A DNA stretch of 64,000 nucleotides from a virus. The notes beneath the pieces are model-generated. The model was not told where the DNA came from and made no database searches. It saw only the letters and a program-made list of their open reading frames with translations. Shown here one piece after another: positions 44,505 to 64,000 of the stretch (position 1 is its first letter; each line of letters starts with the position of its first letter). The stretch is from positions 1 through 64,000 of IMG/VR virus record IMGVR_UViG_3300025120_000034, one strand, 5' to 3'. Made by a program: the position numbers and the translations under genes.

Positions 44505-44508
44505 ATTG

Positions 44509-47500: not shown

Positions 47501-49778
47501 ACGGTCTGTTTCTGTGGTCGTAATAAACGATACCAAAATCATGTGTAGCCCCAGCCTTAAAAGAAGTAACTGCTTCTCCATCCTGAGTAAAAATAGATAT
47601 GTCGCCAGAGATAAAGTTATATTCTTCCCAATGACTTCTCAATGCACCTGAACCTACACTATAATCACGAACAGTATATCCTGCTCCATTCTCCTGAGAA
47701 CCTATACTTAATGATACTTTATCAGAAGTAAATAAATTCATCTGATGGTTGTACCCACTTCCTTGGAAAATTGACCCGTTATTCGCTCCTACTCCATAGT
47801 AAAGATTCGCTGCAAGCTGAGCGTCGGTTCCGCCAACAAAATCATTTGTCACCGTAGTAGGTCCTACAGTGGTTGGTGCTAAGGCATAGTCGGTATCAAG
47901 GCTTATGTCGATACAACGAACCATGCATGTTACTTTTTGAGATTGTTGGTCGTATGTAGCACTGTGAACCTTAAACTCACCAAAGCCTGACATCCAAGCT
48001 AGGAGACAATCGGCTTCTTGGGTGGTGGGCTGAATGCTGGGGAAACCAGCAGATGTCCCAGAGAAAAATGCAGTTGCGCCAATCAGGTTTTGGTTCGGTC
48101 CTTCGGTTGAAGGGGTGAGACCTACCGTTGAGGATTCTAATTCATTAACTATAGCGGATGAAATAAATTCTCCAAAAGAATTAACGTCTTGAAAGTCTTG
48201 GCCTTGCGATGTCAAATTAAATTGCAAGGGATTCTGAAACTTAAGATTGCCTATCCCAGACTGAATACTATCGGGGTTCAGTATAGTTACATTTTGACTG
48301 TGGATTTCCTCTCCGTCGTCGGCGTATGTAGTAGCCAACACACTGAATTGTGTGTTACTTGCGTTGCTATCTAAATCAGGGGAAATTCCAAACCTATCGC
48401 AAGACAAATTAAAGTTCATATTTATCTGCGAATCCGAAGCGTCAAATCCCTGTGAGGGGAAGTCAGATAAATCAATCTGAAAACTTATTCCGTTTGTAGT
48501 GGAATCCCCGTACCTAGCAAAGGTTAGTGACGGAGACAAACTCAGCCATTCTCCAGATGCATAAAAAGCATTCGTAGAGGTGCCTCCATAAATAGCTCTC
48601 CAAGAACTCTGAAACTGGTCTGATGCATAGGAGCCTACTCCAAGAGTTTCGGTAACGACACCGTTTGTACCGCCAACAACATCAATATTTATAGAAGAAG
48701 ATGTTTCTATGTCGGGGTGATATACAGGGTATGAAAACACATCTGGCTGGGGTAGATTATCAAACCCTTCTAAATAGTTACCGTAAAACAGTCTGCTATT
48801 CGAAATAGCCTGTGCGGAAGCTACCCTAGGGACAGCGTCGTGAGTTCTATTAACCTCTTCAGAGGAGACGTAGCTGTATATCTTGTCGTTTCTGAACGTA
48901 AATGTTTGCTCGGTTTGCTGCGGGTCATTACTAAGTTCCTTGACTTTGAAGAATGCTCCGTCGTTATTTCGCCTAGCGAACACCCTAATCTTATCTACTG
49001 GGCCATCAGAATTTGAAACTGTTACAGCTAATTCATTGTTAAACGCACTAGCAAACTGAATAGAGGTTGAGTTAAACGCTAAGTTTGTGGGGCTCACGGC
49101 TAAAGGCGAGTAAGCGGAAATTGCACTTACCTCACCGTCATCATATATGTATTGATAGGCAAACTGAAAGCAATTATCCCTGAGGTTATTCTGCCCCACA
49201 GATTCGTTAGTTCCAAACTTAAAAGTAGGGACCGATTGAGGCGGTGGTTTACAAACAGTAAAGAATTTTTCCTTCTGTATGGATGTCCCTGAAGTCAAGT
49301 TCGGTCCATACCCGTTGTATAAAAGTCTAGTTGCGTTTATTTTTCTCGGCTCGTTTCTGTTGTCCGTGAAGTATAGTAGGTGTTCTTCAAATTGATTTAT
49401 AATAACATCAGCTTTAATAAAACCGTCTCTACTAAAATTAAGAACGGGGTCTTGATAAAGTTTAATGTACTTGTCATCTATGAAGTCATACTTATATATA
49501 CCGTGATTTAGATTTGAGTTGTAAACAAAGAAATAAATACACTTTCCAGATTCGCACGTTACCGCACCTACTGCTCTATTAGTCCCTGAGGGGATAGCAT
49601 CATCGGTTGTAACCGGGTTTACAATAGTGTTTCCCTTTATATTTCTAACTATTCCTTGGTCACTTCCATCGTCAGGAGAGATTCGGATGTTAAGAGCATC
49701 GGTCATCTCGAAAGGCTTAACCAACCTCTCGTCCTCATCCTTGTTCAGATACTGGGGTACAAGCTTGTCAATAGCCAT
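44514..49778 (-). CDS. crAss-like tail stabilisation/muzzle-type protein
   Basis: 1754 aa, mostly beta. The N-terminus AIDKLVPQYLNKDEDERLVK, followed by FEMTDALNIRIS, resembles the large 'stabilisation' protein found after the ring proteins in crAss-like and related Bacteroidetes podoviruses. The body has repeated domain-like stretches (VDKIRVFARRNNDGAFFKVK, GQIFISLRGLEGKSNSYKDF, YFCDMDAGKVFSLSSKGIQP). It starts at the last base of the ring-like gene. It likely forms the distal tail or its plug. Resemblance is from memory of the family, not a search. Confidence 0.72.
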   Translation of the reverse strand: MAIDKLVPQYLNKDEDERLVKPFEMTDALNIRISPDDGSDQGIVRNIKGNTIVNPVTTDDAIPSGTNRAVGAVTCESGKCIYFFVYNSNLNHGIYKYDFIDDKYIKLYQDPVLNFSRDGFIKADVIINQFEEHLLYFTDNRNEPRKINATRLLYNGYGPNLTSGTSIQKEKFFTVCKPPPQSVPTFKFGTNESVGQNNLRDNCFQFAYQYIYDDGEVSAISAYSPLAVSPTNLAFNSTSIQFASAFNNELAVTVSNSDGPVDKIRVFARRNNDGAFFKVKELSNDPQQTEQTFTFRNDKIYSYVSSEEVNRTHDAVPRVASAQAISNSRLFYGNYLEGFDNLPQPDVFSYPVYHPDIETSSSINIDVVGGTNGVVTETLGVGSYASDQFQSSWRAIYGGTSTNAFYASGEWLSLSPSLTFARYGDSTTNGISFQIDLSDFPSQGFDASDSQINMNFNLSCDRFGISPDLDSNASNTQFSVLATTYADDGEEIHSQNVTILNPDSIQSGIGNLKFQNPLQFNLTSQGQDFQDVNSFGEFISSAIVNELESSTVGLTPSTEGPNQNLIGATAFFSGTSAGFPSIQPTTQEADCLLAWMSGFGEFKVHSATYDQQSQKVTCMVRCIDISLDTDYALAPTTVGPTTVTNDFVGGTDAQLAANLYYGVGANNGSIFQGSGYNHQMNLFTSDKVSLSIGSQENGAGYTVRDYSVGSGALRSHWEEYNFISGDISIFTQDGEAVTSFKAGATHDFGIVYYDHRNRPSGVQPLEEKSVKHFGQRPGGNNGRTEIDFRLLHEPPSWATKWAPVYSKNTSYSEVLQVLVNEAATGKQTTFTDIRSNDGVKTRPVLSGLEGGVNGQIFISLRGLEGKSNSYKDFKGASKSYEYNEGDILRILQYEDSEGNIQRPLHEFKITSYKFYTDNDENPIRLSQNSPDEDETNYRRTGWYLTIRDNNISNFKRGDILVGKDFFSQNCLVEICRPKRGVEEESRVYYEIEKQYDILEVGGVRTHAGDRSNSVSPAVTIQVLSPTIFTSTTRLYLGDKLIIGAGSGEHVFIEGIVPNSNGVYTYTVYSGQPFTTSNVSDGAIFPCVVDNAVGSPNSLHKGVVTLTKGDMYLRIREQLGNSKTDYTPSGQTIVFKYDPTIPDNQLYRKFVIEDESVSDYFDSKAISIGRPFIETPDQEEIRRATAITYSAPFVSDSNVLNLSTFNPLLFSYKDYNSINGPVCSIIDKGESLLVMQEKKISSTPIDRTLIQSAGKDGMLVTSTNVLGTETYFAGTFGPGLNPESVVDRFGVTYFCDMDAGKVFSLSSKGIQPISEVKMSAFFGSLFADLLLRDSIPRIPCGIDPENDEFIVTVEGQDVNDITLGTLNVGNVPKPPANARVTGAVGKIKPVVGGSNMLSWSTDPIKWDDTNITPVSFLPEWDSVGDALVVIDKLTERGSSFVSPDKSASTSDFKADVITSDGKYRGVAKMNMADGSIIFSTTIIEKGASSDVSKTITITDGVDDDGKTLAYSTDKNFWLSFYSFNPELYSSLHNRFFSFEAGQIYRHNVNETRNNFYGAQKNSEIEIVSKKNPSSVKVYNAISLEGNDTWAGVVTNSNQTTSIPEAMYEEKEGIYYTNIPNDVAADSNDSVGTERVVLGEVSALSGNSLDVTFTGRVSNLPFGIGDSVKVISGSGEQDLGLTITAVLGRNKLRFSGAATGQIGNTLVAVSSDVINGEQMRDYYAKFKLTNDNTAEKELYAVNAIYTPSALDNSETN

Positions 49779-50581
49779 TAATACTTAGGTGCTTGTTTGA
49801 AGTTCTTTCTAATTGTCTTGAGTGCCTCTTCACCGCTAAACGCCTTAAGCCTTGCGTTAGCCTTGCGTCTCTCGTTGTAGTATTCCTGACGAGCTCTACC
49901 CTTCTCTCCGAGTGGGACACTTCCCTTCCTTTCTACAAGCTTGTAGTAGATGTAAGAACGTAACGCCTCTTCTGCTTCAACATGCACTGTCGGGTTAACC
50001 GAGCGAGCCTCGTCAGCTATGTACTCAATTACAACCTCAGAGAAAGTACCGCCAGAAACTTCAATCCTGTTCTGGTCTTCGTTGAGTCGATACTGCCCAC
50101 TATAAAAACCTCCGCCTAATCCATACAGCTGACCAACTCCACCCTGAAAAATGTAATTACTAAACGTCATAAAGTCGTCCTCGCTAAACAAGCTTCCAGT
50201 TGAACCCGTCTTTGAGTCAACCCTATCAGCAATCCCATCACCATCAGAGTCGATGATGTTACCAGACGAATCAGTAGAATACTTCTGAGAGTAGTTAATG
50301 TTTTTGTTCTCACCAAACACACTAACCAATCCATCATTACCCACGATACCTATCTTAATCAATGAGACGAAATCATCAGGGAGAGTAACTGTATCGTTAG
50401 AGTTCTTGGTTAGTTTAATTGACCTTACCCTCTTAAGCATGTCAAAGCCCATCTCCCGGATTCCCCTGAGTGCAACGTTTTTAATAACAACGTCAGAAAC
50501 ATTGTTTACGTAATCATCTGAATCGAGCGTCAGTACAAAGTCATTGACTACCTGCTCTACTGTAACTAAGTTCCTTGCCAT
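49778..50581 (-). CDS. ring-like head-tail connector protein
   Basis: 267 aa. Contains VVNDFVLTLDSDDYVNNVSD, VALRGIREMGFDMLKRVRSI and LPDDFVSLIKIGIVGNDGLV, a pattern seen in crAss-like ring/connector proteins downstream of the capsid. A short Asp-rich stretch DSDGDGIADRVDSKTG (around residue 110-125) looks like a calcium-binding thrombospondin type 3 loop. The end is helical and basic. Start overlaps by position with the following genes' continuous operon. Confidence 0.65.
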   Translation of the reverse strand: MARNLVTVEQVVNDFVLTLDSDDYVNNVSDVVIKNVALRGIREMGFDMLKRVRSIKLTKNSNDTVTLPDDFVSLIKIGIVGNDGLVSVFGENKNINYSQKYSTDSSGNIIDSDGDGIADRVDSKTGSTGSLFSEDDFMTFSNYIFQGGVGQLYGLGGGFYSGQYRLNEDQNRIEVSGGTFSEVVIEYIADEARSVNPTVHVEAEEALRSYIYYKLVERKGSVPLGEKGRARQEYYNERRKANARLKAFSGEEALKTIRKNFKQAPKY

Positions 50582-50584
50582 CTA

Positions 50585-51322
50585 TCAACGCTTTTGTTTC
50601 TGTCCTTCTGCGTAGTTGTAGATGCTGGCATCACGCAGGTTAACACCAATGAGTCTAGCCATCTCCTCAACAAGCTCTGGTATATAGTGCTCAGGCAACT
50701 CAAAGTCAACACTAGTGGAAGCTGTGTACACCTCCTTGTTATTGGTTACAGTGAAACCAAACTTAGGCATTGAAGCTGTCCTCGCCCCCGTTGTGGCTAA
50801 CAGTCCTTCTGGCTGCTTATAATACCTTACACTAATCTTCTTAATGCTGTCAGGGAATACCATGACCTCATCATCTAAGAAAGCTACAGGCGAGTCTTCA
50901 GTTGGTTTACTGAGATTACTATTAAGCACATACTCAAGCTTTTCTTCATCATACTCTACTGGAATTGTTACAGAGCTACTTACATCCATTAGGATGCTTC
51001 CAAACGTTTTAACTGTAATAATCCTAGATAGGTCATCTGGCTTTGCAAAGTGAGAACCCACGGTTCTTGTGATTGCTCCTGATGTTTTTGAAAATAATGA
51101 CAGGTCTTCCTTGACTTGTTTGCCAAGTGACTTATCTCTGCCGGGGTCGATACCCCTACGTCTCATTGCTTCTGCATTACCCAACTTATTAAATATGTTG
51201 TTAAACACATTCGTTTGGGCTATAGGTGCAAACGCATTGAATTGACTAGGTGTAACAAACCCTCGCTGGTCTTTGTTTGCGATATCTTTCAGTGCATTGT
51301 AAACTTCTCTAACGCTTGCCAT
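50585..51322 (-). CDS. ring-like head-tail connector protein
   Basis: 245 aa. The N-terminus VREVYNALKDIANKDQRGFV, then TPSQFNAFAPIAQTNVFNNI, matches the second small connector of crAss-like tails in look. The middle is beta-rich (VPVEYDEEKLEYVLN-like segment, SIKKISVRYYKQPEG) and the end is helical (HYIPELVEEMARLIGVNLRD). It follows a terminator and its own promoter, so it starts a new transcript for the tail genes. Confidence 0.65.
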   Translation of the reverse strand: MASVREVYNALKDIANKDQRGFVTPSQFNAFAPIAQTNVFNNIFNKLGNAEAMRRRGIDPGRDKSLGKQVKEDLSLFSKTSGAITRTVGSHFAKPDDLSRIITVKTFGSILMDVSSSVTIPVEYDEEKLEYVLNSNLSKPTEDSPVAFLDDEVMVFPDSIKKISVRYYKQPEGLLATTGARTASMPKFGFTVTNNKEVYTASTSVDFELPEHYIPELVEEMARLIGVNLRDASIYNYAEGQKQKR

Positions 51323-51341
51323 AGTTGAGGGGAATCTCCAG

Positions 51342-51349
51342 CAAATATA
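51342..51349 (-). promoter_or_regulatory. promoter -7 element for tail operon
   Basis: Minus-strand TATATTTG, 19 nt before the ATG at 51322 and just after the U-tract of the terminator that ends the capsid transcript. Confidence 0.55.
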
Positions 51350-51380
51350 CAGAAAAAGAAAGGGGGCTAATGCCCCCCTT
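51350..51380 (-). terminator. rho-independent terminator after the capsid operon
   Basis: On the minus strand GGGGGC-ATTA-GCCCCC is followed by TTTCTTTTTC: perfect 6-bp GC stem, tetraloop and U-rich tail. It lies 23 nt after the stop of the 274-aa gene and separates the capsid genes from the tail genes. Confidence 0.8.
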
Positions 51381-51402
51381 CGTCTGATGAGAATACCGAT
51401 GA

Positions 51403-52218
51403 TTAAGCAAGTGCCTCAAGCTGGCGTTCCAGCTCCGACAGGACAGAAGCTCCCTTATCAGTCATTACAAATCTAGTCATTACCTCGATAATATCCTGAC
51501 CTAATGGTACAGAAACAATCATCTTTCCTGTGTCAAACCAAACACAAGCTCCGTTTCTTTCCTCAATTATTTGGAAATCAATGGATTGAGCTACGGTTGA
51601 GCGAGCGTTAACCATCGGACTATCAATCGTAGACATAAAATCGTCTGGCTTATTCTTTGCGTATTTAATCAAGGCATGCTTTATCGATAAGTCCTTTTGA
51701 TTGGTGTTGATGTTAAGTGCCATAGCCACTGGTAACAACTCATCAATCGGTCTGTTCTTGATAATAGAAATAGCATCGCTGACCTTGAACTCCTCCTCTA
51801 CGTCAACCTCTACATTCTCATCTTTCTGAACCAGCTTGAATATATTACCGCCATTCTTTACGTTTCCCGGATGCGTGTCCATAAACGCCCTGAGGTTAGG
51901 TTGGGTGGGTGGTACTGTCAAATACTTTTTATCAAAAAACAAGGGTTCTATTAGAGCCCCTTCTGACTGTTCGTCGATGTAGATAGACTTCTCCATAGGC
52001 GCATACCTAATACCCCTTACTGAATTAGACGGCTCATCATACACCTGAATGTTTTTAGTGGGTAGCCTTCTCATGAAGTTACTTCCGTCAATACATTCAT
52101 AGAGCCTAGCTTGTTTGGCTAAGTCTGGAATTTCTCTCCTGATAATAGGAGATTTTTTGCGAGCTGTTGCAGGTTCTTGTTTAGGCGGTCTGCCCCCGCG
52201 CTTCTTAGTCTGTTCCAT
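51403..52218 (-). CDS. capsid-adjacent protein with basic AT-hook-like N-terminus
   Basis: 271 aa from MEQTKKRGGRPPK; an ATG three codons earlier (52227) is also possible. GGRPPK resembles an AT-hook minor-groove binder. Later parts: ARLYECIDGSNFMRRLPTKN, SIYIDEQSEGALIEPLFFD, and a helical end MTDKGASVLSELERQLEALA. Located directly after the capsid gene and before a strong terminator, it is likely made in large amount. It may be a virion DNA-associated or head protein. Confidence 0.6.
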   Translation of the reverse strand: MEQTKKRGGRPPKQEPATARKKSPIIRREIPDLAKQARLYECIDGSNFMRRLPTKNIQVYDEPSNSVRGIRYAPMEKSIYIDEQSEGALIEPLFFDKKYLTVPPTQPNLRAFMDTHPGNVKNGGNIFKLVQKDENVEVDVEEEFKVSDAISIIKNRPIDELLPVAMALNINTNQKDLSIKHALIKYAKNKPDDFMSTIDSPMVNARSTVAQSIDFQIIEERNGACVWFDTGKMIVSVPLGQDIIEVMTRFVMTDKGASVLSELERQLEALA

Positions 52219-52248
52219 TTTATACAATTTAAATTAGGAGATAATGAA

Positions 52249-52269
52249 GGGGAGAGCGATTCCCTCCCC
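52249..52269 (-). terminator. hairpin after major capsid gene (possible attenuator)
   Basis: GGGGAG...CTCCCC arms with an 9-nt loop in the 58-nt gap after the capsid stop; on the minus strand followed by TTCATTATC, a weak U-tract. It may reduce read-through into the next gene or protect the capsid mRNA 3' end. Confidence 0.45.
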
Positions 52270-52285
52270 CGCATTACCAATTAGA

Positions 52286-53662
52286 TTACTTAATCAATAC
52301 GTGCTGGTTTGCAGCTCGTGTCACCAAGCAGCATTCAGAACGGTAGTGAAACTTAGCGATGTCAGTGGTATCGTTAGTGAAACCAAGAACACCACCACCA
52401 GTTACCCAGTGGTCCATTTCTCTGTTGTATCCATTAGCAGCCTTATAGTTAAGCTCTAGAGAAGGTGCTTTATTACCTGTCTTCGGGTCTACAACATTAG
52501 CCAAAGGAATCAAACATCCTTTTGCAATAGCCTGACCGTTGGTGTTACCCAACAAGTTAGGGCTGTTCAAAAGACCCATCTTCTTCATGTGGAAAGTGTA
52601 ACCACCTCTAGCGAAGCTTTGGAAACCGAGGTTAACAGCTGCGGCAGAGTCATTGTTGAATGTGCCATAAGCAGCATTGTCAGCCTCTCCAGCAACGAAT
52701 CCGTTGAAGGCAGCAAACAAGCTACTGTTTAACATAGCTGCATACTCAACAGGGGCCCCTTGCTTATCCAAGAGAGCGATAGTAGCATCCAACTCTGTAA
52801 GGTTATCCAAGTCTCCTGCGGCTCCAGTAATACCTCTTTCTCTTACAGCGGCGAAGTAGCCTTCCGTTCCTGAGATACCGGTTGGGACGGATGTCTTTTC
52901 GCCCAAAAGCATGGTCAACTCTCTAGCGTCTAGGAAACGCTGACGAGCATCCATCTCACCTTTGATGTACCATCTGTAGTCTCCTCCACCAACGTCGATA
53001 TAACCGATGTTAGTTGCGGCAGAACCACTTACTTGATAGCTTTCCTTAACGATAGCGAAGGGGTTAGTTCTCTTCACGATGTTAGACTCAATGTATCGGG
53101 TGGGTTGGTCCGTTCCTTGAGCGTACATGTTACCTACGATAGGAAACTGAACTATCGCATCGTCTGCAATAGCGGCCAAGTTTTCACCGTCCAGAGACTC
53201 AATAGTAAATGCGCCAGTAGAAGGAGTAGCAGCAGTAACGATTGCAACTTTTCCTGTCGTATCGAGAACGAGGTCACCCTTACGCACCTTCAAACCAATT
53301 AAGCTATCTGTACCAGCTGCGTCAGCATCGGTTGCTGCTAAGGTTTGAGAGGCTGCCGCGTCAATATCGGCACTACCGGCGATATTCTTAATTTGCTGAA
53401 TAGGGTGTAGACGAGTCTCCTCAAAATAGGTTACGTCATCAGCTGTACCTACAGCTTTAGTTGCCCCCATCAACTCCAACAAACCAGAGATACCCTGATT
53501 TCCAAAAGTTTTTGTGAGGTCTTTTCTAACGTCTGGTGCAATGTTATCGGCAAGGTCACCTAAGGAGGCGTACTTTGCTGCTGGTGTACCAAAGTTAAAG
53601 GCGTTGCTCACCGCACCTTTTGGTGCGTTTAGAGCGTTTTGGCCTTGAATTTCTTGAGCCAT
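52286..53662 (-). CDS. major capsid protein
   Basis: 458 aa. N-terminal LNAPKGAVSNAFNFGTPAAK, then FGNQGISGLLELMGATKAVG and YFEETRLHPIQQIKN. This resembles the start of HK97-fold capsid proteins of crAss-like podoviruses ('GLLELMG' then 'EExRxH'). The middle has a beta-rich insertion (LVLDTTGKVAIVTAATPSTG). Preceded by an acidic scaffold gene and followed by hairpin/terminator structures, the normal place for the capsid gene. No N-terminal prohead protease gene was recognised. Confidence 0.8.
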   Translation of the reverse strand: MAQEIQGQNALNAPKGAVSNAFNFGTPAAKYASLGDLADNIAPDVRKDLTKTFGNQGISGLLELMGATKAVGTADDVTYFEETRLHPIQQIKNIAGSADIDAAASQTLAATDADAAGTDSLIGLKVRKGDLVLDTTGKVAIVTAATPSTGAFTIESLDGENLAAIADDAIVQFPIVGNMYAQGTDQPTRYIESNIVKRTNPFAIVKESYQVSGSAATNIGYIDVGGGDYRWYIKGEMDARQRFLDARELTMLLGEKTSVPTGISGTEGYFAAVRERGITGAAGDLDNLTELDATIALLDKQGAPVEYAAMLNSSLFAAFNGFVAGEADNAAYGTFNNDSAAAVNLGFQSFARGGYTFHMKKMGLLNSPNLLGNTNGQAIAKGCLIPLANVVDPKTGNKAPSLELNYKAANGYNREMDHWVTGGGVLGFTNDTTDIAKFHYRSECCLVTRAANQHVLIK

Positions 53663-53676
53663 TTGTTCTAAGTTTT

Positions 53677-54765
53677 TTAGATGTTAAAAGTCATTGTTGA
53701 CCCCCCACCTAAAGCATTGCGAAGCTGTTCTGCGATACTATCTGACTGCTGAGATGTGTCTCTTTGAGCTGATTCATTGCTTACGTTAGCAGCTGACTGT
53801 ACAACTTTCTTTTGACCGTCACTCATACCCTGTTGGTAAACAGATTGTACGATGCTGTCAATATTGTCAACCAGTGCCCTGTGTGCATTAAGCTTCTCAA
53901 AGTTCCAATCACCTTGGTCACTCACATAGTCATCGAAGTATTGCTCCAGCTGAGTGTTCTTTGCTACCAGTTCCTTTCGATAATCGTCTTTGATTCCGTA
54001 GGTGAATTTCTCACCAGATGGAAGTTCAAAAACCAAACCATCGAAATCTTGGACCTCGGCAGACATAGTCTTCAGCCAATCTTCTGTAATGGGGGATTGC
54101 GCTTCGGTTTCTCCCTGTTCATTTACGGGTAGTTGATACCCGTCTCTCAGTTCAGAGATAGACTTCCGTGCAGTTTCCGCGTCCATCTTAAGCTGTAGTT
54201 TAGCCATCGAGACTTCGTTCTCGTCGTATCGGTCAGCATCCATTTTGTACTTATTCCCCACGAGCATGTTAATCTCATCGAGAGATAGGTTGTCGTGTTG
54301 AATAACCATCTGGTTACGTACAGCTGTCATGTCATCCATTTCAGATGGGTTCAACTGCTGATACTTATACCAGTCTTCTGGACTGCGTCCCGTCTTCTTA
54401 ACGAAGTCATTGATTGCTGCTACGCGCTCGTCAATTTCTGCGGGTTTATTTGAAATCATTTCAGTCAAAGCATCGTATCCGGAGAACTCAGTCCCAAGCT
54501 TTTCGCTTAAGTATCTAAGAACTTCAGAATCGACATCAATGTCTGGGATTGATTCAGATTCATTTGTTATCGCTTCCTGAACGGGAACTGAAGGTTCAAC
54601 CTCAGGCTCCGCGACAGGTGCGTTATTTTCAACAGGAGTTTGTTCAACCACTGCTTGCTCTTGTACAGGCTGTTCTGTAACATTCTCTGTTGGTTCTTGT
54701 GTAGGCGGAGTATCACTGATTGCAAAACCAGCAGCCTCCATCGCCTCTTCTAATTCTTTACTCAT
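53677..54765 (-). CDS. scaffold protein
   Basis: 362 aa, acidic and helical. The N-terminal ~85 residues are a low-complexity Glu/Pro/Val/Gln tract (TEQPVQEQAVVEQTPVENNA). Helical coils follow (SMAKLQLKMDAETARKSISE), and then a Gln/Ser-rich end. Acidic, Pro/Glu-rich proteins just upstream of the capsid gene act as scaffolds for prohead assembly. Sequence conservation of scaffolds is low, so composition and position carry the call. Confidence 0.75.
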   Translation of the reverse strand: MSKELEEAMEAAGFAISDTPPTQEPTENVTEQPVQEQAVVEQTPVENNAPVAEPEVEPSVPVQEAITNESESIPDIDVDSEVLRYLSEKLGTEFSGYDALTEMISNKPAEIDERVAAINDFVKKTGRSPEDWYKYQQLNPSEMDDMTAVRNQMVIQHDNLSLDEINMLVGNKYKMDADRYDENEVSMAKLQLKMDAETARKSISELRDGYQLPVNEQGETEAQSPITEDWLKTMSAEVQDFDGLVFELPSGEKFTYGIKDDYRKELVAKNTQLEQYFDDYVSDQGDWNFEKLNAHRALVDNIDSIVQSVYQQGMSDGQKKVVQSAANVSNESAQRDTSQQSDSIAEQLRNALGGGSTMTFNI

Positions 54766-54771
54766 ATCTAT

Positions 54772-55092
54772 TTATTTAAATTTCTTTTTTTGTCCTTTAG
54801 GTGGGGTCTTTGAATGACCTCCCGCCTTCCAAAGGAATCTATTTGCCCAGTATGCGGCACTGCCCTTTCGTGCAATATTCTTAGCGTGTCTGCTTTTAAA
54901 CGCAGCCCTTGCTTTAGCATTGTAATTATTCCCCATGCTCTGGTCTCCAAAGCGAATGAGAACACCAGCTTCTTGACCGGGACCAAGAGTACTAACTACA
55001 GCTGCCTTTTTTGTTGCATGGCCTTTAGTCAACTTAGGTTTGTTGACTCCTTTAAAACCTAGCTTCTTAGCTTTATCTGCGGCACTGGACAT
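54772..55092 (-). CDS. small basic protein upstream of scaffold
   Basis: 106 aa, highly basic: DKAKKLGFKGVNKPKLTKGH, RFGDQSMGNNYNAKARAAFK, SRHAKNIARKGSAAYWANRF. The 'ARxxFKxRHxKNIxxKxSAxYWA' pattern recurs in small basic proteins of marine phages without known function. Its ATG is 4 nt after a TATCTTTG element. The scaffold gene follows after 6 nt. It could bind nucleic acid or be packaged in the head. Confidence 0.65.
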   Translation of the reverse strand: MSSAADKAKKLGFKGVNKPKLTKGHATKKAAVVSTLGPGQEAGVLIRFGDQSMGNNYNAKARAAFKSRHAKNIARKGSAAYWANRFLWKAGGHSKTPPKGQKKKFK

Positions 55093-55096
55093 TTAG

Positions 55097-55104
55097 CAAA
55101 GATA
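55097..55104 (-). promoter_or_regulatory. TAnnTTTG element 4 nt before ATG (leaderless type)
   Basis: Minus-strand TATCTTTG, CTAA, ATG at 55092. Likely promoter of the head-assembly operon (small basic protein, scaffold, capsid). Confidence 0.5.
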
Positions 55105-55125
55105 ATGAAAAGAGGATAAGGCTTT

Positions 55126-55338
55126 TTAAGGCATCAAAGACGCTATCAGTGCTTTATCTGATTCTGATAGAACTACTTGCTGTTGAATAATTTCTGCTTC
55201 ATCATCTGAAATAACGCCATTGTTATCATAGGATGTAATCATTGCCAATTTTACCTGCAAATTGTAATCGCCTTCGACTATGTGTTGGACAACTAAATCC
55301 TCACCTAACAAGTCCACAACTGCTTTTATCTTGTTCAT
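55126..55338 (-). CDS. small hypothetical protein
   Basis: 70 aa: NKIKAVVDLLGEDLVVQHIV, KLAMITSYDNNGVISDDEAE, then a helical end. NNGVISDDEAE looks like a short regulatory loop. It overlaps the stop of the larger gene by one base. Probably a minor structural or assembly protein. Confidence 0.55.
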   Translation of the reverse strand: MNKIKAVVDLLGEDLVVQHIVEGDYNLQVKLAMITSYDNNGVISDDEAEIIQQQVVLSESDKALIASLMP

Positions 55339-56195
55339 TATCCAACGTTTAAGTTACTATTACCTGCGTTATTACTGGTAGCACTCATTGGCCCAACGTG
55401 TGCCAATTCAGTGTAGTTTACTCCATCATTTGACCCTTCAAACAATAAATGAAAAGCGTACAGCACGTTCAAGTTCATGCTCTTAATGGTTGGAGGGGTG
55501 CTATAGGTTCCCGGCTCAAATTCAATTTGAAGGTATTTTGGAGTACCGCTTATGCCCCAAAATCTCGTAGAAGTACTGCTGTCAAAAGCCTTGTACTTAT
55601 AATTGGTTGAATACACAGCTGACGAGGTTAAAGCGATACCCGTTTGACTTGTATTAGAACTAAGGTTTGTGGTTGGGTGATTTGTTCCTGTTTGACCCGC
55701 CCCCTCATACAAAGACCAGTCTCTTATAGATAACCATGAAGTACCGCTTGTCCCTTTGGTGGCGTTCGTGTTGGTCAAGCGGATATATCTATAAGCAGTG
55801 AAAGACGGCGTATAAGTCAATGTTAGTGCTGTACTTTGTATGTTATCCCCAAACTCCTGAGCCTTGACTGTTACGGTGCGTTCTGCTGTGCTTGTGTTTG
55901 TATCGGTAAAGGTCATGACTGGCCCCAATGAATCATCGCCATTGTCCATAGCGTGATTTACATCTGCATCAGCAACGATTTCCGTACCGCCAATTGACAC
56001 GGATACTGAATAATTAGGATTTGTATAGCTAGAGTGATTACTAATTATGACTGAACCCTGCCCAAAACCGAAGGAGATTGAAGCCGTCGGTGTGGTTGTA
56101 GTTGTACCACCACCACTGCTGGTTGCTATATCAACACCGCTTATTTTTTCAATATCAGCCATGTCTATTCCGCTGTACTTTTCAATATCTGGCAT
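55338..56195 (-). CDS. appendage/structural protein with discoidin-like C-terminus
   Basis: 285 aa. A short repeated-looking N-terminus (MPDIEKYSGIDMADIEKISG), a Gly/Thr linker, a beta domain (SISFGFGQGSVIISNHSSYT), then a C-terminal region that looks like a carbohydrate-binding F5/8 (discoidin) fold: YRYIRLTNTNATKGTSGTSW, then RFWGISGTPKYLQIEFEP and HLLFEGSNDGVNYTELAHVG. It could recognise host surface glycans. The first ~30 residues appear to belong to genome B while the rest is shared with A (see repeat). Confidence 0.7.
   Translation of the reverse strand: MPDIEKYSGIDMADIEKISGVDIATSSGGGTTTTTPTASISFGFGQGSVIISNHSSYTNPNYSVSVSIGGTEIVADADVNHAMDNGDDSLGPVMTFTDTNTSTAERTVTVKAQEFGDNIQSTALTLTYTPSFTAYRYIRLTNTNATKGTSGTSWLSIRDWSLYEGAGQTGTNHPTTNLSSNTSQTGIALTSSAVYSTNYKYKAFDSSTSTRFWGISGTPKYLQIEFEPGTYSTPPTIKSMNLNVLYAFHLLFEGSNDGVNYTELAHVGPMSATSNNAGNSNLNVG
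55920..56046. repeat. 127-bp exact direct repeat (copy 2; copy 1 at 1-127)
   Basis: Identical over 127 bases with the first 127 bases of the window, then diverging. The switch from genome A to genome B is placed here or within the following ~950 bp, before the first GATC at 56991. Confidence 0.9.
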
Positions 56196-56199
56196 GCCA

Positions 56200-57534
56200 T
56201 TACGCTAATTCAATATGCTCGACAGAAGGGTTAAAATAAATAACGCTAGTGCTGACTGCGTGTCCAAGTATTCTTTGATAGCCCGTAGTTGGTGCGGTAG
56301 AAGTTACTTGACCCGAGCCATTCGAAGAAGAAGAAAACACCGTTTGACCCGCTGTGAGTTGAGCACTTACCAATGACGGGCGAACAAACCCCCTCAAGAT
56401 GAATCCTGAACTCATTGTGCTTCCTACTGCCATACCTAAAAGGGAAATTTGAGAAGCTGCTACAGCTGTTGAATAAAGAGCCCAAGTTGTCCCGTTGTGG
56501 TAATATATCTTTCCAGCAACAACAGAGGTTCCAGAGCTCCCAAGAAAAGTAATATCGGCTCCAGCTCCATAATCGCCAGCAGAACTGATACCAGAGCTAT
56601 GCTCTTGAATAAACTCATTTGCCGTGACTGGCCCATTTAGTTCGATTCCGCTTGACCCGCCAATAAGTGTCTGGGTAAACCCCCCGTTAAATACAGCAAC
56701 ATTGTTGGCATCTGCTTTAGCTAATACTCTAGGACTGCCGCCCGTGTTTTTAGCAATAAAAGACTCGTTATTATCAACTTGAATGCCACCCGAAGCAACA
56801 GCCAAATTGGTTCCGTCGTATGTCAGGTTAGCCTCACCCTCTAACGTGCTGGCAGTTCCAGAGCCTGTAATAAGGCTGTTGTCGGCGTTGTTGTTTATAG
56901 TGACCCCTCCGCCTGCGGCCTCTAAACTTATCTTAGCGGAAGAGTGGTCGTATGTCAGTACGTAGTTGTCTTGACCCGAACCCACAGACTGATCGGCATC
57001 CAAAGTGTAGTTACCTAGTTTTACGTCCCCTGTCCCATTAGGCTCCAACACTATATTACCGTTCGTTGCTGTGGTGTATATCTTTTTTATGGACAAGTCT
57101 AGATCAGCGCCTAGCTTTAGGTGGTCGTGGTTGTTGAACAACAGCTTTCCGCTAGTAGAAAGATTTAAATCAGTCCCGTCAACGATTACAGCATATCCAG
57201 ATTTTCCAGTAAAGTCAGAAGCTGAAACCCCATCCAAGGCTGTCACTTTATCTGTACTCTTAATTAGAGTGTCTGGAGCTGCGTTTACAACAGCGTTTAC
57301 AGCTGTAACAGCAGCGCTAACGGTGGTGCCAAAAACTGCATCGGAAGAATCAACAAGTTGAGTGATGTCAAAATTATTCAACACCTTCCTGTTGGTGTCT
57401 GTGTCGGTCAAAATAATCCTACCCCCGCTAGTTCCTGCTGCCGCCTGAAGAACTCCTGTTTCGTAATTAACAAACCTATTAGTGGTCTGTACGGTTACCA
57501 GGTTGTTTGTTTTGCTAATTATTACCTTCCCCAT
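56200..57534 (-). CDS. genome-B tail fibre-like protein
   Basis: 444 aa. N-terminus GKVIISKTNNLVTVQTTNRF; GRIILTDTDTNRKVLNNFDI follows, a fibre-type block common in Bacteroidetes phages. The end (AGDYGAGADITFLGSSGTSV, GHAVSTSVIYFNPSVEH) is the counterpart of the end of the 275-1396 product, but the N-terminal region is unrelated to it. So the C-terminal tip module is shared while the stalk was exchanged. Likely host recognition. Confidence 0.7.
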   Translation of the reverse strand: MGKVIISKTNNLVTVQTTNRFVNYETGVLQAAAGTSGGRIILTDTDTNRKVLNNFDITQLVDSSDAVFGTTVSAAVTAVNAVVNAAPDTLIKSTDKVTALDGVSASDFTGKSGYAVIVDGTDLNLSTSGKLLFNNHDHLKLGADLDLSIKKIYTTATNGNIVLEPNGTGDVKLGNYTLDADQSVGSGQDNYVLTYDHSSAKISLEAAGGGVTINNNADNSLITGSGTASTLEGEANLTYDGTNLAVASGGIQVDNNESFIAKNTGGSPRVLAKADANNVAVFNGGFTQTLIGGSSGIELNGPVTANEFIQEHSSGISSAGDYGAGADITFLGSSGTSVVAGKIYYHNGTTWALYSTAVAASQISLLGMAVGSTMSSGFILRGFVRPSLVSAQLTAGQTVFSSSSNGSGQVTSTAPTTGYQRILGHAVSTSVIYFNPSVEHIELA

Positions 57535-57536
57535 AA

Positions 57537-58700
57537 TTAGTTGTTTGCTACAAAATTAATTTTAGTTCCCGTTTTAAGGTTTATGAACTCAGTTCCCCCA
57601 AAACTCTGAGCTTCTATGGTGAGCCTTATCTCGTCGTACGAAGCTGGATAGAAAGCGGTCAAAAAGGGAATAAGGCTTTCTGTTGCCGAATACTCCCACG
57701 ACCCTGCCGTTGGATCCTCGTTAAGCTGCTGTGGAAAGTAATGTACGCCAGAAGCCTGCAAAGTATTGTTGTTGAAAAACTCAACCTTAATCCGTGGCAT
57801 TATTTCTGAATAATTAGGAACGGTTTTATTTACGTTTAGCTTAATCGTGGCTTCGGCGACGTCAGGGATTTGACCAGTACCTAAAAAATTAGAAAGCAGA
57901 GTAAAGTTAGTTCCATCCGACAGGGTTAAATAATCATTAGCGTCGTTAAAACCGTTGTTAATCCCAGTAGATGTAAGGCCGTTAGTAAGATCGCTAGACT
58001 CAAACGTAATCGTTTTAAAGCTGAGTGCGTCGCTCGCCCCAGTGAAGTCAACGGGACTCCCATCGCTTTGAAAGTCTGCTGTCCAGTCTATAGTAAAGGG
58101 GGCTCCAATCCCAAAATTCCCAAGAAACAACAGTAGGTCAGCCGTAGTGACTACGCCGTCACCATTAAAGTCTCCCAAGATGTTTGATCCAGCTGCCGAA
58201 TATGTATCAACGGTTCCTAAGCCTTGGTCTATTAAGACCTGAGCGAAGGCGGTTGTGAACCACCCAAAGAAATCGTTCTGAGAAAGCTTCTTGTACGTAT
58301 CAGTGTCTGGATTATAAAGCTGAAAAAAATACTTATCGTCGTCTGCCGCAGTCAAAGTAGCAGGAGTTACAACCCCGTACTCATCCGTATTGTGAGGAAT
58401 TAAAAGCCAGTTAGATCCTGTTTGCCAAGGAGTGTCGCCCATGTCCGCAGACGTGTAAACACGAAGCTCATTGTTGCTTTTAGTGTACGCTAGATAACCT
58501 TCTTTTCGACTTGAGGAGGCTACACCGTTTCTTGCATTGACATCAGCAAAAACATTGTAATCACTAGACCCCGAAGCCGCCTCCCAAGCAGCACCTCCAG
58601 CCCCATCCGAAGCTAAAACGTATCCGTCGCTAGAACTCTCAGAGTTTATATCGCCAGCAGTTACAGAGCCAGACGTTAATATTTTTTTCCAGGTCGCCAT
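57537..58700 (-). CDS. genome-B fibre-like protein with dockerin-like unit
   Basis: 387 aa beginning MATWKKILTSGSV, the shared docking motif. Residues ~170-195 read ILGDFNGDGVVTTADLLLFL, an EF-hand-like dockerin type I unit (DxNxDGxxxxxDLLLFLxxFG). A fibre-type beta body follows (IPDVAEATIKLNVNKTVPNY). It has no counterpart in the A cassette, where only the small gene 1406-1588 lies between the two fibre genes. A calcium-binding fold is inferred. It starts 3 nt after the neighbour. Confidence 0.7.
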   Translation of the reverse strand: MATWKKILTSGSVTAGDINSESSSDGYVLASDGAGGAAWEAASGSSDYNVFADVNARNGVASSSRKEGYLAYTKSNNELRVYTSADMGDTPWQTGSNWLLIPHNTDEYGVVTPATLTAADDDKYFFQLYNPDTDTYKKLSQNDFFGWFTTAFAQVLIDQGLGTVDTYSAAGSNILGDFNGDGVVTTADLLLFLGNFGIGAPFTIDWTADFQSDGSPVDFTGASDALSFKTITFESSDLTNGLTSTGINNGFNDANDYLTLSDGTNFTLLSNFLGTGQIPDVAEATIKLNVNKTVPNYSEIMPRIKVEFFNNNTLQASGVHYFPQQLNEDPTAGSWEYSATESLIPFLTAFYPASYDEIRLTIEAQSFGGTEFINLKTGTKINFVANN

Positions 58701-58708
58701 TTTTTAGC

Positions 58709-58879
58709 TTAAGACTTTTTAAGCTTTGTTTCTTCTTTTTCCTGAATGCCTTGAAGTCTAGTAAATTCTTCATCCAGTTTAGTCATAAGGTTAGCTACCG
58801 TTGGGGCATCTACGGCCTTGATGCTAGCCGCTTTTACTACTTCGTTTAGGAAGTAAACTTCGTTGATTTCTAATTTCAT
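58709..58879 (-). CDS. genome-B orthologue of the 1406-1588 small protein
   Basis: 56 aa (MKLEINEVYFLNEVVKAASI, then KAVDAPTVANLMTKLDEEFT). It aligns end to end with the 60-aa protein at 1406-1588, with conserved MKLxIxExxF start, LDxEFxRLQxIQEKE end. Its conservation while neighbours change supports a core function in fibre assembly. It lies 8 nt before the start of the dockerin-containing fibre gene. Confidence 0.65.
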   Translation of the reverse strand: MKLEINEVYFLNEVVKAASIKAVDAPTVANLMTKLDEEFTRLQGIQEKEETKLKKS

Positions 58880-58902
58880 TTGAATTGAATTAAGGTTTGA
58901 AA

Positions 58903-59076
58903 TTATTTAGCCTTCAGTTGATTCTGAAGTTTATTTACTACGTCTGCCAACAAAAGTACGTCTTTTCCTTCAAAAGTGCTATCGTGAAGGCACTTTAAAA
59001 TAAACGTAAGCTCCTGCTGGGTCAGGGTGTCAGTGGTCACCCCACCGACATCTCTGCCCTTGCCAAGAATTCCCAT
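58903..59076 (-). CDS. genome-B orthologue of the 1605-1781 small protein
   Basis: 57 aa (MGILGKGRDVGGVTTDTLTQ, later GKDVLLLADVVNKLQNQLKA). It matches the 58-aa protein at 1605-1781, especially in the second half. The ATG overlaps the stop of the upstream fibre gene, the same coupling as in genome A. Confidence 0.65.
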   Translation of the reverse strand: MGILGKGRDVGGVTTDTLTQQELTFILKCLHDSTFEGKDVLLLADVVNKLQNQLKAK

Positions 59077-60161
59077 TACTGAACTCTCACGTAGAGTGCG
59101 CCATCTGCGTTAGATGCTGATTGAGCAAAGAAGAAAGATCCTACTCCCGCAGCATCACCTGTTGGTGCATCAGCCGAAGTGAGGTTGAAATCCATAATGG
59201 AAATTTCAAAATCAGTCTGGGCAACATCGGTTGCTGTAGAGTAATCAGCAGTATCTCTTAATGTCCAACCAGTAAGGTTTTGACCTGTTTTGCTCCAGTT
59301 GAGTGCAGCAAACATAGTTTCGCTTGAGCCATGATGGGACGTAAGCGTCAAACCACCGCCATTAGCACCATCATTCGCTAGGCCTGCCCCTGTGTCGTTA
59401 GTGGCATAGGCGCTGTCTGGGTTTGCAAGAACAACGTTTTTATCTTCGACAACAAGTGTTTCAGTCTGAACGGAAGTGGTAGTTCCAGTTACAGTGAGAT
59501 TACCAGCTATAGTTGTATTACCAGTGATGTCCGCGCCACCCGTAGTAACGGTCAAGCCAGTAGCCGCAGTAATTGTAGATGTTGAGGCAATACTACCTGG
59601 AGCGATAAACGCAGCAGGAGTGCTAAACACAACGCTATTAGTACCTGTGGTCGTAGAAATCTGATTAGCCGTTCCCGCTAAATTAAGCGTCTCTGAGTTT
59701 AAGATTTCTTGAGCGGCCCCTGAATCTCCAGAAACGTCGAGAGCAAAACCAGCCGCTGTCACTGTCGCAATTTCGCTGTCCACGTAGCTCTTAATGGCCT
59801 TGGCGGAAGCAAGTGTGTCATCATTCGCAGAAACACTAGAAAGGTTAGCGTCAATGGTGAGAGCTGTAGGTGCTGCGGCACTAGCCGTTGCGTTACCGAG
59901 AACGGTAGCGGCGGCAATATCTGCAATCTTAGCGAGGGTGACGTTTGAGTCAAGGATCTTTGCCGTAACAACCTTGTCGGCCCCAATAGTAACCGCACCA
60001 GTGGTTGCAATCGTAACATCACCACTAACGGATACGTTGTCAAAGGAGTCTACGCCGTCATGAACTAAAATTTGAGCTGACGATGCAGATGATACTGATG
60101 CGTCTGATAAGTCATTGATGGCGACGGCACCCTCAACTAATACTTTTTTCCATGTTGCCAT
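59076..60161 (-). CDS. genome-B tail fibre-like protein
   Basis: 361 aa starting MATWKKVLVEGAVAINDLSD. Repetitive Ala/Thr/Val-rich beta body (TTTGTNSVVFSTPAAFIAPG) with VQTETLVVEDKNVVLANP, the counterpart of the 1781-2899 fibre by position and by this block. The C-terminus (QNLTGWTLRDTADYSTATDV) differs from that of A. A TATATTTG element lies upstream. Likely host-recognition fibre. Confidence 0.7.
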   Translation of the reverse strand: MATWKKVLVEGAVAINDLSDASVSSASSAQILVHDGVDSFDNVSVSGDVTIATTGAVTIGADKVVTAKILDSNVTLAKIADIAAATVLGNATASAAAPTALTIDANLSSVSANDDTLASAKAIKSYVDSEIATVTAAGFALDVSGDSGAAQEILNSETLNLAGTANQISTTTGTNSVVFSTPAAFIAPGSIASTSTITAATGLTVTTGGADITGNTTIAGNLTVTGTTTSVQTETLVVEDKNVVLANPDSAYATNDTGAGLANDGANGGGLTLTSHHGSSETMFAALNWSKTGQNLTGWTLRDTADYSTATDVAQTDFEISIMDFNLTSADAPTGDAAGVGSFFFAQSASNADGALYVRVQ

Positions 60162-60195
60162 GATATGCTATTTTTTTATTTTCTAAATATTTCAA

Positions 60196-60203
60196 CAAAT
60201 ATA
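60196..60203 (-). promoter_or_regulatory. promoter -7 element (genome B fibre operon)
   Basis: Minus-strand TATATTTG in the gap between 60161 and 60215, 34 nt before the ATG at 60161; same place as the promoter before the A fibre gene at 2899. Confidence 0.45.
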
Positions 60204-60214
60204 CAACGTATTTA

Positions 60215-60805
60215 TTAGGTCACCCCGAAGTACAGGTTATCAGCATCGTCCGCATACATACCCCCCTCGAAAGCTGTAGGGGCATCGGCAGTGTGATCGA
60301 ACTGCTTAAACTGTACAAGACCGTCTAGATTTATCTTTCCAGTAGATGCTGGGGATGGAGTAAACTTTATCGTTTGATCTGTTGTAGCCTCTATCTTAAA
60401 CACAGACCCTGTAGAGGACATCTCCACAGAGTTGTTAAATTCAATTTTGTCGCTTTCGCCAAGCTCAATATCGAAATTGTTTGTTTGAAGGTTAGCCCCT
60501 AGCTGAGGAGATAAGTCTTCTACTATGTTTTGCAAACCACCACCAATAATGGTTGCTAGGTCTGTCCACCCTGTGGCTTTTGTAGCAATGTTGTTCTCAT
60601 CCACTAAGAGGTAAAACTTAGAGTCACCCTGGTGGTAGACTATAGTAACGTACTCCTTGAGCTGATCGCTTACAGACGTAAGACCAGTTAAACCAGCGTC
60701 GTTAGCAACCACCCTGACACCGCCTCTAACGAAGTTAGAATCAACAAAAGCTTTTGCTGAGTTGTTATGGCCGTATTCGCCCGCCCTTCCTAGTTGTACT
60801 GGCAT
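60215..60805 (-). CDS. genome-B orthologue of the 2942-3484 protein
   Basis: 196 aa. MPVQLGRAGEYGHNNSAKAF at the start, the conserved GGGLQNIVEDLSPQLGANLQ block in the middle and the ADDADNLYFGVT end. It occupies the same place as the A gene between the collagen-like gene and a fibre gene. Appendage component by context. Confidence 0.68.
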   Translation of the reverse strand: MPVQLGRAGEYGHNNSAKAFVDSNFVRGGVRVVANDAGLTGLTSVSDQLKEYVTIVYHQGDSKFYLLVDENNIATKATGWTDLATIIGGGLQNIVEDLSPQLGANLQTNNFDIELGESDKIEFNNSVEMSSTGSVFKIEATTDQTIKFTPSPASTGKINLDGLVQFKQFDHTADAPTAFEGGMYADDADNLYFGVT

Positions 60806-60809
60806 GAGT

Positions 60810-62486
60810 TTATGAAATGCTTAGGAATTGGTTATTCAGTGCGTTTGTAGAATCACTTCTGTAAACGGTATAAGTACTGGAAACTCCATACCTGTTTTCA
60901 AGCGTATAGGTACCAAGATCATTGAAAGCCCCAAGAGTGGGAGATACACCGTCCAAGTTCATTGTAGATATGTGATTATTACCTGGGTAGAATATATACA
61001 TAAACTTATTGCTCGTTTGAATAGTGTATGTATTCGTATTCCCTATGCTTGAAGGATAAGACCCTGTTTTTATCTCTCTTTCATTGTTGCCGCTGTCGTC
61101 ACCACCAAACGCTGCATAAACAGTTTGAACGGCGTTCTGGGAAGATCCAGTAGTCAATGCTGTTGTGTCGAAACACACCTGATAAGAGTAGTAGTAGTTT
61201 ATGTTAGAAAAGTCACTAGAGGTGTCAGACCCGTAAGTGCTGTCAACAACAACTCTATATCTATGGGGTGTGGCCTCCGCCGTTAAATCAGTAGATCCGT
61301 CTGTAGCAACAGTAATTGAATCCGTGTTTATAGCGAGCGAGATATTATTCTCAGTGGAACCATTTCCTAAAGAGCTGAGATCCGTAGTAGAGTCTGGAGT
61401 TGTTATCTCCCTGTAATTGCTTCCTACTTCAAATTGAACAACAGAGTCAATTAGCGGATCATAAAGCTCATCCCTTCTCACGTCATAACGAAGAGTAGAC
61501 TGAACATCACCATACTCCCTGGTTGTAGAGGTTGTGCCTGTTGCAGCAGAAATGGTTGAATTGCTCCTAGTTATTTGCTTGTCGCTAATAAGAGGCGAGT
61601 CAAAACTATTGGCTGTTGTGAATTCGTTTGCTGTCTGTTCAGTTGTACCGCTGGTGCTGTCCGTTACCCTAAGTCGAAAATGGAATACGTTGTTGCTAGC
61701 CCAGGCCTCTCCAGTGCTATAGACCTTTGAGAGATTCGAGGCCCCAAAAGTAACCTCAGAGGATGTGTACGATTGAACCGTTGTCCATGATCCAGTAGGG
61801 GTTGACTGAGTATTAGCAAGTTGGTACTCAAGTACAGCGGTTCCCGTAGCGCCTTGGTTGGCGATGCCAAAGTTTATAGAAGATACAGTTACAGAAGATG
61901 CGCTTGAAGGGTGCTGCCAATCAGGTCCAGAAAGGCTAAAGCTAGGGGTTGGGTTAATGGCGTCCGTAAACGCATCAACTAAAAGTTCTGAAGCTGTCTT
62001 TCCATTAGCGGGAATGGTGTCTCCGTTTTTGTATTTCCCAAAAGTTTTCACGACCCCTGAAACGGTGGGCATGTTTGCCACATAGTTCTGAGTAAAAGTC
62101 AATTGGCCTCCGTCCGCTCCGTCTGCTCCAGCGGCTCCATCAGCACCAGCAGGACCAGCAGGTCCCTGAGCACCATCAGCTCCAGCGGCTCCAGCAGGCC
62201 CCTGAGCGCCTTGAGCTCCGTCAGATCCAGCAGCCCCAGCAGCCCCAGCAGCCCCAGCAGGACCAGCAGGACCTTGAGGTCCTTGAGCGCCAGTAGGCCC
62301 TTGAGCGCCAGTTGCTCCAGCAGGTCCAGCGCCAATAGCTCCAGCTACAGAAATGTTATTATTTGCAGCCTGATTTAAAACTACGACCTTAGTGTCAGTG
62401 CCTCCCTTTACGACAGATACTTTAATGATATCTCCGTTCTCACTAGATATCTTTATGCTTTTTGGTTGTTCTACACTTATCGGCAT
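60810..62486 (-). CDS. genome-B collagen-like appendage protein (no cupredoxin)
   Basis: 558 aa. The conserved anchor MPISVEQPKSIKISSENGDI is followed by a collagen-like run (residues ~52-135, GPAGPAGADGAAGADGADGG) and Ig-like beta segments (VTVSSINFGIANQGATGTAV, FHFRLRVTDSTSGTTEQTAN). Compared with 3486-5672 it lacks the copper-type domain: the collagen run passes straight to QLTFTQNYVANMPTVSG. Likely a trimeric fibre or whisker. Confidence 0.72.
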   Translation of the reverse strand: MPISVEQPKSIKISSENGDIIKVSVVKGGTDTKVVVLNQAANNNISVAGAIGAGPAGATGAQGPTGAQGPQGPAGPAGAAGAAGAAGSDGAQGAQGPAGAAGADGAQGPAGPAGADGAAGADGADGGQLTFTQNYVANMPTVSGVVKTFGKYKNGDTIPANGKTASELLVDAFTDAINPTPSFSLSGPDWQHPSSASSVTVSSINFGIANQGATGTAVLEYQLANTQSTPTGSWTTVQSYTSSEVTFGASNLSKVYSTGEAWASNNVFHFRLRVTDSTSGTTEQTANEFTTANSFDSPLISDKQITRSNSTISAATGTTSTTREYGDVQSTLRYDVRRDELYDPLIDSVVQFEVGSNYREITTPDSTTDLSSLGNGSTENNISLAINTDSITVATDGSTDLTAEATPHRYRVVVDSTYGSDTSSDFSNINYYYSYQVCFDTTALTTGSSQNAVQTVYAAFGGDDSGNNEREIKTGSYPSSIGNTNTYTIQTSNKFMYIFYPGNNHISTMNLDGVSPTLGAFNDLGTYTLENRYGVSSTYTVYRSDSTNALNNQFLSIS

Positions 62487-62495
62487 AATAATATC

Positions 62496-62888
62496 TTAAG
62501 CTGTTTCTGACACGTCTTCAATAACTCTTACCGTTCCGTAGATTAAAGTGGTTACAACTGCTCCTGACTTCTGTTCGACATCATAAGCATAGAGTCCAGA
62601 TGGCATCGTCTTCATTGTGGTCGCGGCCAAGGTGAGATCAATGTACTTTGCGGTAACGTCGTCAGAATCTGCCGTTACCTCCATCACGAATTGCACAACA
62701 GGGTCGGAGGTGTTAGCCACTGGGGTGCCCGTGTCGGAATTTCTTACCTCCATCAAAAAAACATCTCCAGCGGTAAAACCAACAGTATCGTCAGCATTGG
62801 TTATATTAAGTCTCAAGGAAAAAGTGTCACCTTTCCTGCAAGTGATGTCAACCCTTTCAGATGTATCTAAGTTTATTTTTGTAGCCAT
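62496..62888 (-). CDS. genome-B orthologue of the 5682-6110 structural protein
   Basis: 130 aa: MATKINLDTSERVDITCRKG, then GDVFLMEVRNSDTGTPVANT, ending AYDVEQKSGAVVTTLIYGTV. Strong similarity to the A protein along its length apart from a shorter central loop. It sits between the portal and the collagen-like gene, as in A. Probably an adaptor of the appendage. Confidence 0.7.
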   Translation of the reverse strand: MATKINLDTSERVDITCRKGDTFSLRLNITNADDTVGFTAGDVFLMEVRNSDTGTPVANTSDPVVQFVMEVTADSDDVTAKYIDLTLAATTMKTMPSGLYAYDVEQKSGAVVTTLIYGTVRVIEDVSETA

Positions 62889-62889
62889 C

Positions 62890-64000
62890 TTATTCGTTGA
62901 TTATTTGTGGTGTTTCATCCCCCTGTCTTTGAGCAATAAGCTTACTCTGCTCAGCAGACTGCTTCTTAACTCTATCGTCTTTTCGATCCTCTTTAAGGAC
63001 TTCAAGCTTTTCTTTAAAGTTGTCGTCAGTTTCTTTAAACCCAAGGGTTGCCTTAGCTTTAATGATTTCGATCTCCTTCCTGAACCCGTGTTTTACCTCT
63101 TCTAGTTGAGCCTCTAGCTGAGCCTTAAGCTGCATCTCTTGGGATTTTAGCTGGGCCTCCATTTGCATTTCTTGCTGTCTAGCCTGAGAAGCAGCCTGTG
63201 CTGATTGCTGCTGAACCTGAGCTTGCTGCTGAGAGTTCTGTTGGGCCATCTGCTGGTTGCTAGCCATTCGCTTCTTTCTTCTAACGATTAAAAGCCTTTC
63301 AGCCTGGTTTACGTCCCTAAGCTGTCGTATAGCAAGGGCGTCCTCAAGGTCTATCTCTTTTTGAGACAAGGCTATCTGTATGTTCTGCTCCAAGAACTGC
63401 CTTTCGTTTTCCTCCATCTCCTTCACAACCTTGACGCCGAAATTAAACATCGACAGGTTCCTGAAGGAAGACAAAACTTTCATGTTCTCCTTACCGACAG
63501 CATTCTCATACATAGAATAGAGAATAGAATCTGGATGAATAACCTGCAAGCACTTTACCACATCGCTACAAACCTTCTTGTACAAAACCATAGAGGAATT
63601 CGTGATGTCATATATAGCGTTGTTTGCAGCGGCAAGAGCTTGTTGCCTGACGCCTACAAGGGCGTCACCCTTAGGTGAAGAGGCGTCCATAACCTCGTTG
63701 ATTCCTGTGGAGTCTCGGATCATCCTGAGGTAGTGGTTATATAAACCAGTTAGCTCGTTGATATTACGAATGCTGTTGCCGATCTCCCGAATAGGGGGAT
63801 TTTGAAAGCCTCCTTCTGGGTTCTTGCTTCTATAGTAGAACACACCCGTCTGCTCGTATATGTCGTGCAGCTCAAGCGGCTGAAGCTCTCCACCCTTTCC
63901 TAGCTGTACGTTTTCCAGCCCCTCAATATCAATGATGATACCGTCTGGCTTTGCCTTCGCTACAGCCTGTTGAATCTTTAAGTGAGTAAGCTGAAGTTGA
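62890..64000 (-). CDS. genome-B portal protein, 5' end beyond the window
   Basis: The C-terminal ~369 residues of a second portal gene; the frame stays open to the last base, beginning QLQLTHLKIQQAVAKAKPDG. The core LRMIRDSTGINEVMDAS is identical to that of the 6103-8556 portal, and the Gln/Ala-rich coil at the end is also shared in style. Around 70% identity overall by eye. A phage needs one portal, so two diverged copies indicate two genomes joined in one contig. Confidence 0.8.
   Translation of the reverse strand, partial: QLQLTHLKIQQAVAKAKPDGIIIDIEGLENVQLGKGGELQPLELHDIYEQTGVFYYRSKNPEGGFQNPPIREIGNSIRNINELTGLYNHYLRMIRDSTGINEVMDASSPKGDALVGVRQQALAAANNAIYDITNSSMVLYKKVCSDVVKCLQVIHPDSILYSMYENAVGKENMKVLSSFRNLSMFNFGVKVVKEMEENERQFLEQNIQIALSQKEIDLEDALAIRQLRDVNQAERLLIVRRKKRMASNQQMAQQNSQQQAQVQQQSAQAASQARQQEMQMEAQLKSQEMQLKAQLEAQLEEVKHGFRKEIEIIKAKATLGFKETDDNFKEKLEVLKEDRKDDRVKKQSAEQSKLIAQRQGDETPQIINE

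Follow-up and report, generated by a model that had tools for sequence, protein, structure and literature searches.

The question raised by this locus is whether a single deposited virus contig, whose first bases recur far inside it, represents one phage genome or parts of two. The window, i.e., the whole stretch of DNA analysed (G000:C1:1-64000, 64,000 bp), comes from a 71,553-bp IMG/VR virus record and starts at base 1 of that record, which means that the window and the contig have the same left end. Bases 1–127 are identical to bases 55920–56046 and the first mismatch is found at base 128 (G versus A), exactly as a previous sequence-only reading had claimed. From the base composition of the window, the chance expectation for exact pairs of 127 bp is approx. 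7e-67. The only other exact repeats of at least 31 bp in the window are the SNP-interrupted continuation of this same match, at 129/56048, and a tandem-like pair at 5341/5350. Past base 128 the two copies are still 93–97% alike up to approx. position 190/56109, and the similarity falls to chance level thereafter. The length of the repeat is a standard k value, and the repeat begins exactly at the contig end. Short direct terminal repeats are present in some tailed phages, and a linear phage genome with a genuine repeat of this type could be proposed from these data; nevertheless, the 127 bp sit inside a coding tail gene, the similarity between both copies runs past the right end of the repeat, with SNPs, and in another assembly (see below) the left edge moves from 1 to 27 while the right edge does not move. 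For these reasons this explanation is considered exceedingly improbable.

The first part of the contig can be closed on itself to give the genome of a phage that will be referred to as A. When position 55919 is joined to position 1, the tail gene reads from 273 to 1 and then from 55919 to 55338, as a frame of 855 nt and 284 amino acids with no internal stops. Sequence continuity across this join is also observed in two related contigs. G001 gives one uninterrupted alignment that spans the join, from A 55095 to A 1150, with 94–99% identity per 100 bp across it; likewise, G007 aligns through the join from 55416 to 1137. In addition, the order terminase, portal, gp30, gp29, gp28, gp27, gp26 and gp25, which is that of the isolated Elemovirus phage elemoA, is found in A only if base 1 adjoins base 55919, the match to gp30 in this order being weak (E=0.005). 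The restored gene, the alignments with G001 and G007, and the Elemovirus gene order support the earlier proposal that A is complete at 55,919 bp. The term circle refers here to the assembly graph, which is closed; at the sequence level, a terminally redundant linear genome would be indistinguishable from it. The coordinates of the main features are listed in Table 1.

Table 1. Features of the window and of the adjoining part of the record (window numbering; - indicates the minus strand).
Feature	Coordinates	Strand	Remarks
Repeat copy 1	1..127		Contig left end, proposed branching k-mer; exact match to 55920-56046
Repeat copy 2	55920..56046		Proposed point where the path, having circled A, exits to B
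A tail gene, N-terminal part	1..273	-	Continues at 55919..55338
Hybrid open frame, 285 aa	55338..56195	-	Shared or A tail-protein body plus B N-terminus
Phage A, complete turn	1..55919		Join 55919/1 from the reading frame, G001 and G007, and the Elemovirus gene order
A portal protein	6103..8592	-	PHROG 6547, E=1.3e-198
A terminase large subunit	8606..10720	-	PHROG 6681
Phage B	56047..64000 (record continues to 71553)		Colinear homologues of the A late module; 99.88% to G002
B portal protein	62890..64000, truncated at the window edge (record: to 65277)	-	PHROG 6547, E=8e-83

Other regions of A deserve a brief description. A single protein of 3,322 residues (31833–41801, minus strand) takes up approx. 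18% of the A genome, and it showed no significant match in Pfam or PHROG. A virion protein of 1,754 residues (44514–49778, minus strand) matches the Pfam crassvirus muzzle models PF25731 (E=3e-16) and PF25729 (E=2e-11), which may point to a remote relationship of this group of 55–60 kb genomes with the crAss-like phages. The product of 18532–19452 (plus strand) matches phrog_7245 (E=8e-71), for which the PHROG annotation is anti-restriction protein.

On the other side of the internal repeat copy, the record was read to its last base (71553), and its final 15.5 kb were assigned to a phage that will be referred to as B. This part carries a portal protein with 59% amino acid identity to that of A, and a terminase large subunit, located outside the window at 65317–67437 of the record, that is 72–73% identical to the A terminase. 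Most of the genes beside them have homologues between position 128 and approx. 13.6 kb, in the same order and with 28–84% amino acid identity. The presence of a second portal, a second terminase and a late module in the order of A indicates that the tail of the record belongs to a second, related phage. Its nearest records are G002, which is 99.88% identical over 15,608 bp and extends 1,458 bp beyond the end of the record analysed here, and G001 (55,069 bp), which is approx. 92% identical across the portal and terminase region. The foreign part thus appears, from its gene content and order, to be a colinear relative of A from the same group and not an unrelated genome; A and B could not be distinguished by GC content. 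A gene for tRNA-Arg (TCT) is found in the early module of A (24803–24877, plus strand), and in B the same tRNA gene lies beside the terminase (67642–67716 of the record, minus strand; L003:12642-12716), as it does in the relatives of B, so that its location differs between two otherwise colinear phages.

Since the deposited sequence is a single contig in which both terminase and portal occur twice, it could be argued that it represents a real phage genome of at least 71.5 kb with two diverged copies of the late module (portal, terminase and tail genes). This is extremely unlikely, given that only one terminase is present in 14 of 15 long relatives (54–68 kb), with G008, which seems to be a hybrid as well, as the exception; moreover, G001 runs on past the end of B without an attached A body, the repeat has the length of a standard k and begins at base 1 of the contig, and elsewhere A and B are recovered as separate contigs, each broken at the repeat. 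The view that the sequence after approx. 56 kb belongs to another genome is therefore well supported by the diverged portal and terminase duplicates and by these separate contigs.

The separate contigs come from metagenome 3300001460, where A corresponds to G006 and B to G002. G006 and A show no mismatches in a base-by-base comparison of 12,949 bp, and 100% identity by BLAST over A 27–16000. Both G006 and G002 stop at one and the same base, 27 of A or 55946 of the hybrid, and they have exactly 101 bp in common. On its right side the overlap thus ends at the same base in both assemblies (127/56046, the last base before the A/B difference), and the left edge is shifted by 26 bases, with an overlap of 127 bp here and 101 bp there. 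A graph modelled from circular A plus B, in which the A gene body was assumed as the left flank of B, has a single branching node, which is placed at 1/55920 for k=127, at 27/55946 for k=101 and at 51/55970 for k=77; hence, the length of the overlap varies with k and the branching edge stays fixed in the model as well. The two assemblies apparently match k=127 and k=101, these k values being deduced from the overlaps. It had also been suggested that the repeat is a branching 127-mer, and the fixed right edge, the k-dependent left edge and the modelled graph all agree with it. However long the shared sequence may be, a contig beginning at its last common k-mer on the right displays just one k-mer of it at the left end, and the figure of 127 is for this reason a property of the assembler; A and B are truly identical over 127 bp or more, probably with an extension further to the left.

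From these results, it is proposed that the record is almost certainly a hybrid contig built from phages A and B by a de Bruijn assembler run at k = 127. According to this proposal, two related, tailed, Elemovirus-like phages would be present together in the sample, with one stretch of a tail gene identical in both, and the graph would split at the right edge of this stretch, at base 128/56047. The contig would begin at the branching 127-mer, circle the closed A genome once (55,919 bp) and re-enter the same 127-mer; from there the path would leave through the B branch, presumably the wrong exit, for another 15.5 kb. It is possible that B carries the left flank of A for some distance, and the crossover would then be right for B at the local level; the position of the crossover cannot be fixed within the shared block. 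A 30-mer from the left flank of A (55821–55850) that was used to look for the left flank of B matched no IMG/VR contig.

Another aspect of this locus is the tail gene in which the crossover falls. The sequence-only reading had proposed that the truncated gene at 1–273 continues as 55338–56046; the continuation itself was confirmed, but the frame printed in the window is a different one, given that the A gene is formed by 273..1 plus 55919..55338, whereas the frame 55338–56195 combines the body of A with the N-terminus of B. The A frame and the hybrid frame have a common body and differ in approximately the first 25–30 residues, up to a linker rich in Ser, Gly and Thr; a more distant locus, L008, shares the N-terminal motif only and is followed by a different body. 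The protein encoded by 55338–56195 matches PHROG 17517 (tail protein, E=9e-10), and searches against Pfam (to E=1) and against PDB sequences gave nothing of value. AlphaFold predictions with four sequences reached a mean pLDDT of 47 and showed mostly strands, a quality too poor for a fold search. Our impression is that the C-terminus is a putative discoidin-like carbohydrate-binding region.

The relatives of A and B are mosaic at this same place. G001 and G007 have a B-like portal and terminase together with an A-like block of approx. 1.6–2 kb around the tail gene, and outside this block they mostly show approx. 68–72% identity or no detectable alignment. It seems reasonably likely that the C-terminal body of the tail protein and its neighbouring sequence have been exchanged among Elemovirus-like phages that are diverged elsewhere, that one of the breakpoints lies at the Ser/Gly/Thr-rich linker behind the short variable N-terminus, and that the coexisting A and B share this body nearly base for base. 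Mosaic tail genes of this type are well known, and such an exchange would account for the identity of A and B along one k-mer or more. The mosaic relatives could also be taken in favour of a real recombinant, in which the structural genes of A lie to the left of the tail gene and the tail, portal and terminase genes of B to its right, its sequence being joined in the contig to the A circle. However, the A-like block of G001 ends near A 55095, and beyond this point the identity to A is approx. 68–72% or undetectable, so that the left flank that a B-type phage has in common with A is probably limited to about 1 kb. Such a recombinant is regarded as very unlikely, and even if it were real, the record would still be a hybrid of two genomes.

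Accordingly, two entries should be made from the record, one for phage A (complete, 55,919 bp) and one for the 15.5-kb piece of phage B. If left as deposited (71.5 kb), it overstates the genome size, masks a complete genome under the label "linear" and gives the appearance of a gene duplication that is not real. Such cases could be flagged simply by the internal recurrence of the first k bases of a record, with k being a standard assembler value. The exception mentioned above, G008 (IMGVR_UViG_3300025108_000031, 68,281 bp; L175-L178), has a partial terminase at 3–767 and a full one at 62249–64354. Its head (1–3228) is only 69% identical to 63585–66807, and a stretch of 311 bp (5360–5670) is 96.8% identical to the contig end. 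G008 is probably another hybrid contig, which suggests that other over-long records of the group need the same scrutiny.

Seen against what has been reported previously, the record is an example of an already known type of artefact and brings no new biological element. End overlaps with the length of maxK, with k lists that reach 127, have been published (COBRA, PMC10914622), as have direct terminal repeats whose lengths fall at k-mer sizes (CheckV, PMC8116208). The locus resembles these cases in that a repeat of standard k length starts from the contig end, and in that the overlap changes between assemblies with a fixed right edge. It differs in that the second copy is internal instead of terminal and the path entered a second genome; as a consequence, circularity tests based on end repeats class the record as linear. 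Chimeric virome contigs formed from coexisting viruses with similar regions are also a known type of artefact (PMC5610896), and here too two different genomes with a region of high similarity were combined in one contig; in contrast with those, one of the genomes is complete, with a full turn that makes the join visible. Regarding the phages themselves, Elemovirus (Flavobacterium phages vB_FspP_elemoA to F) and the isolate ctfjg026 (MW202828), with genomes of approx. 60 kb, have colinear terminase, portal, structural and virion genes, and the late structural gene order of Elemovirus is found in A across the join. Nevertheless, the terminases are only 41–46% identical, and A has a tail-fibre block between the portal and the structural genes that elemoA does not have there. 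The amino acid identity to Elemovirus (terminase 41%, portal 28%, virion protein 29%) lies below genus-level similarity and would place A as a relative outside this genus.
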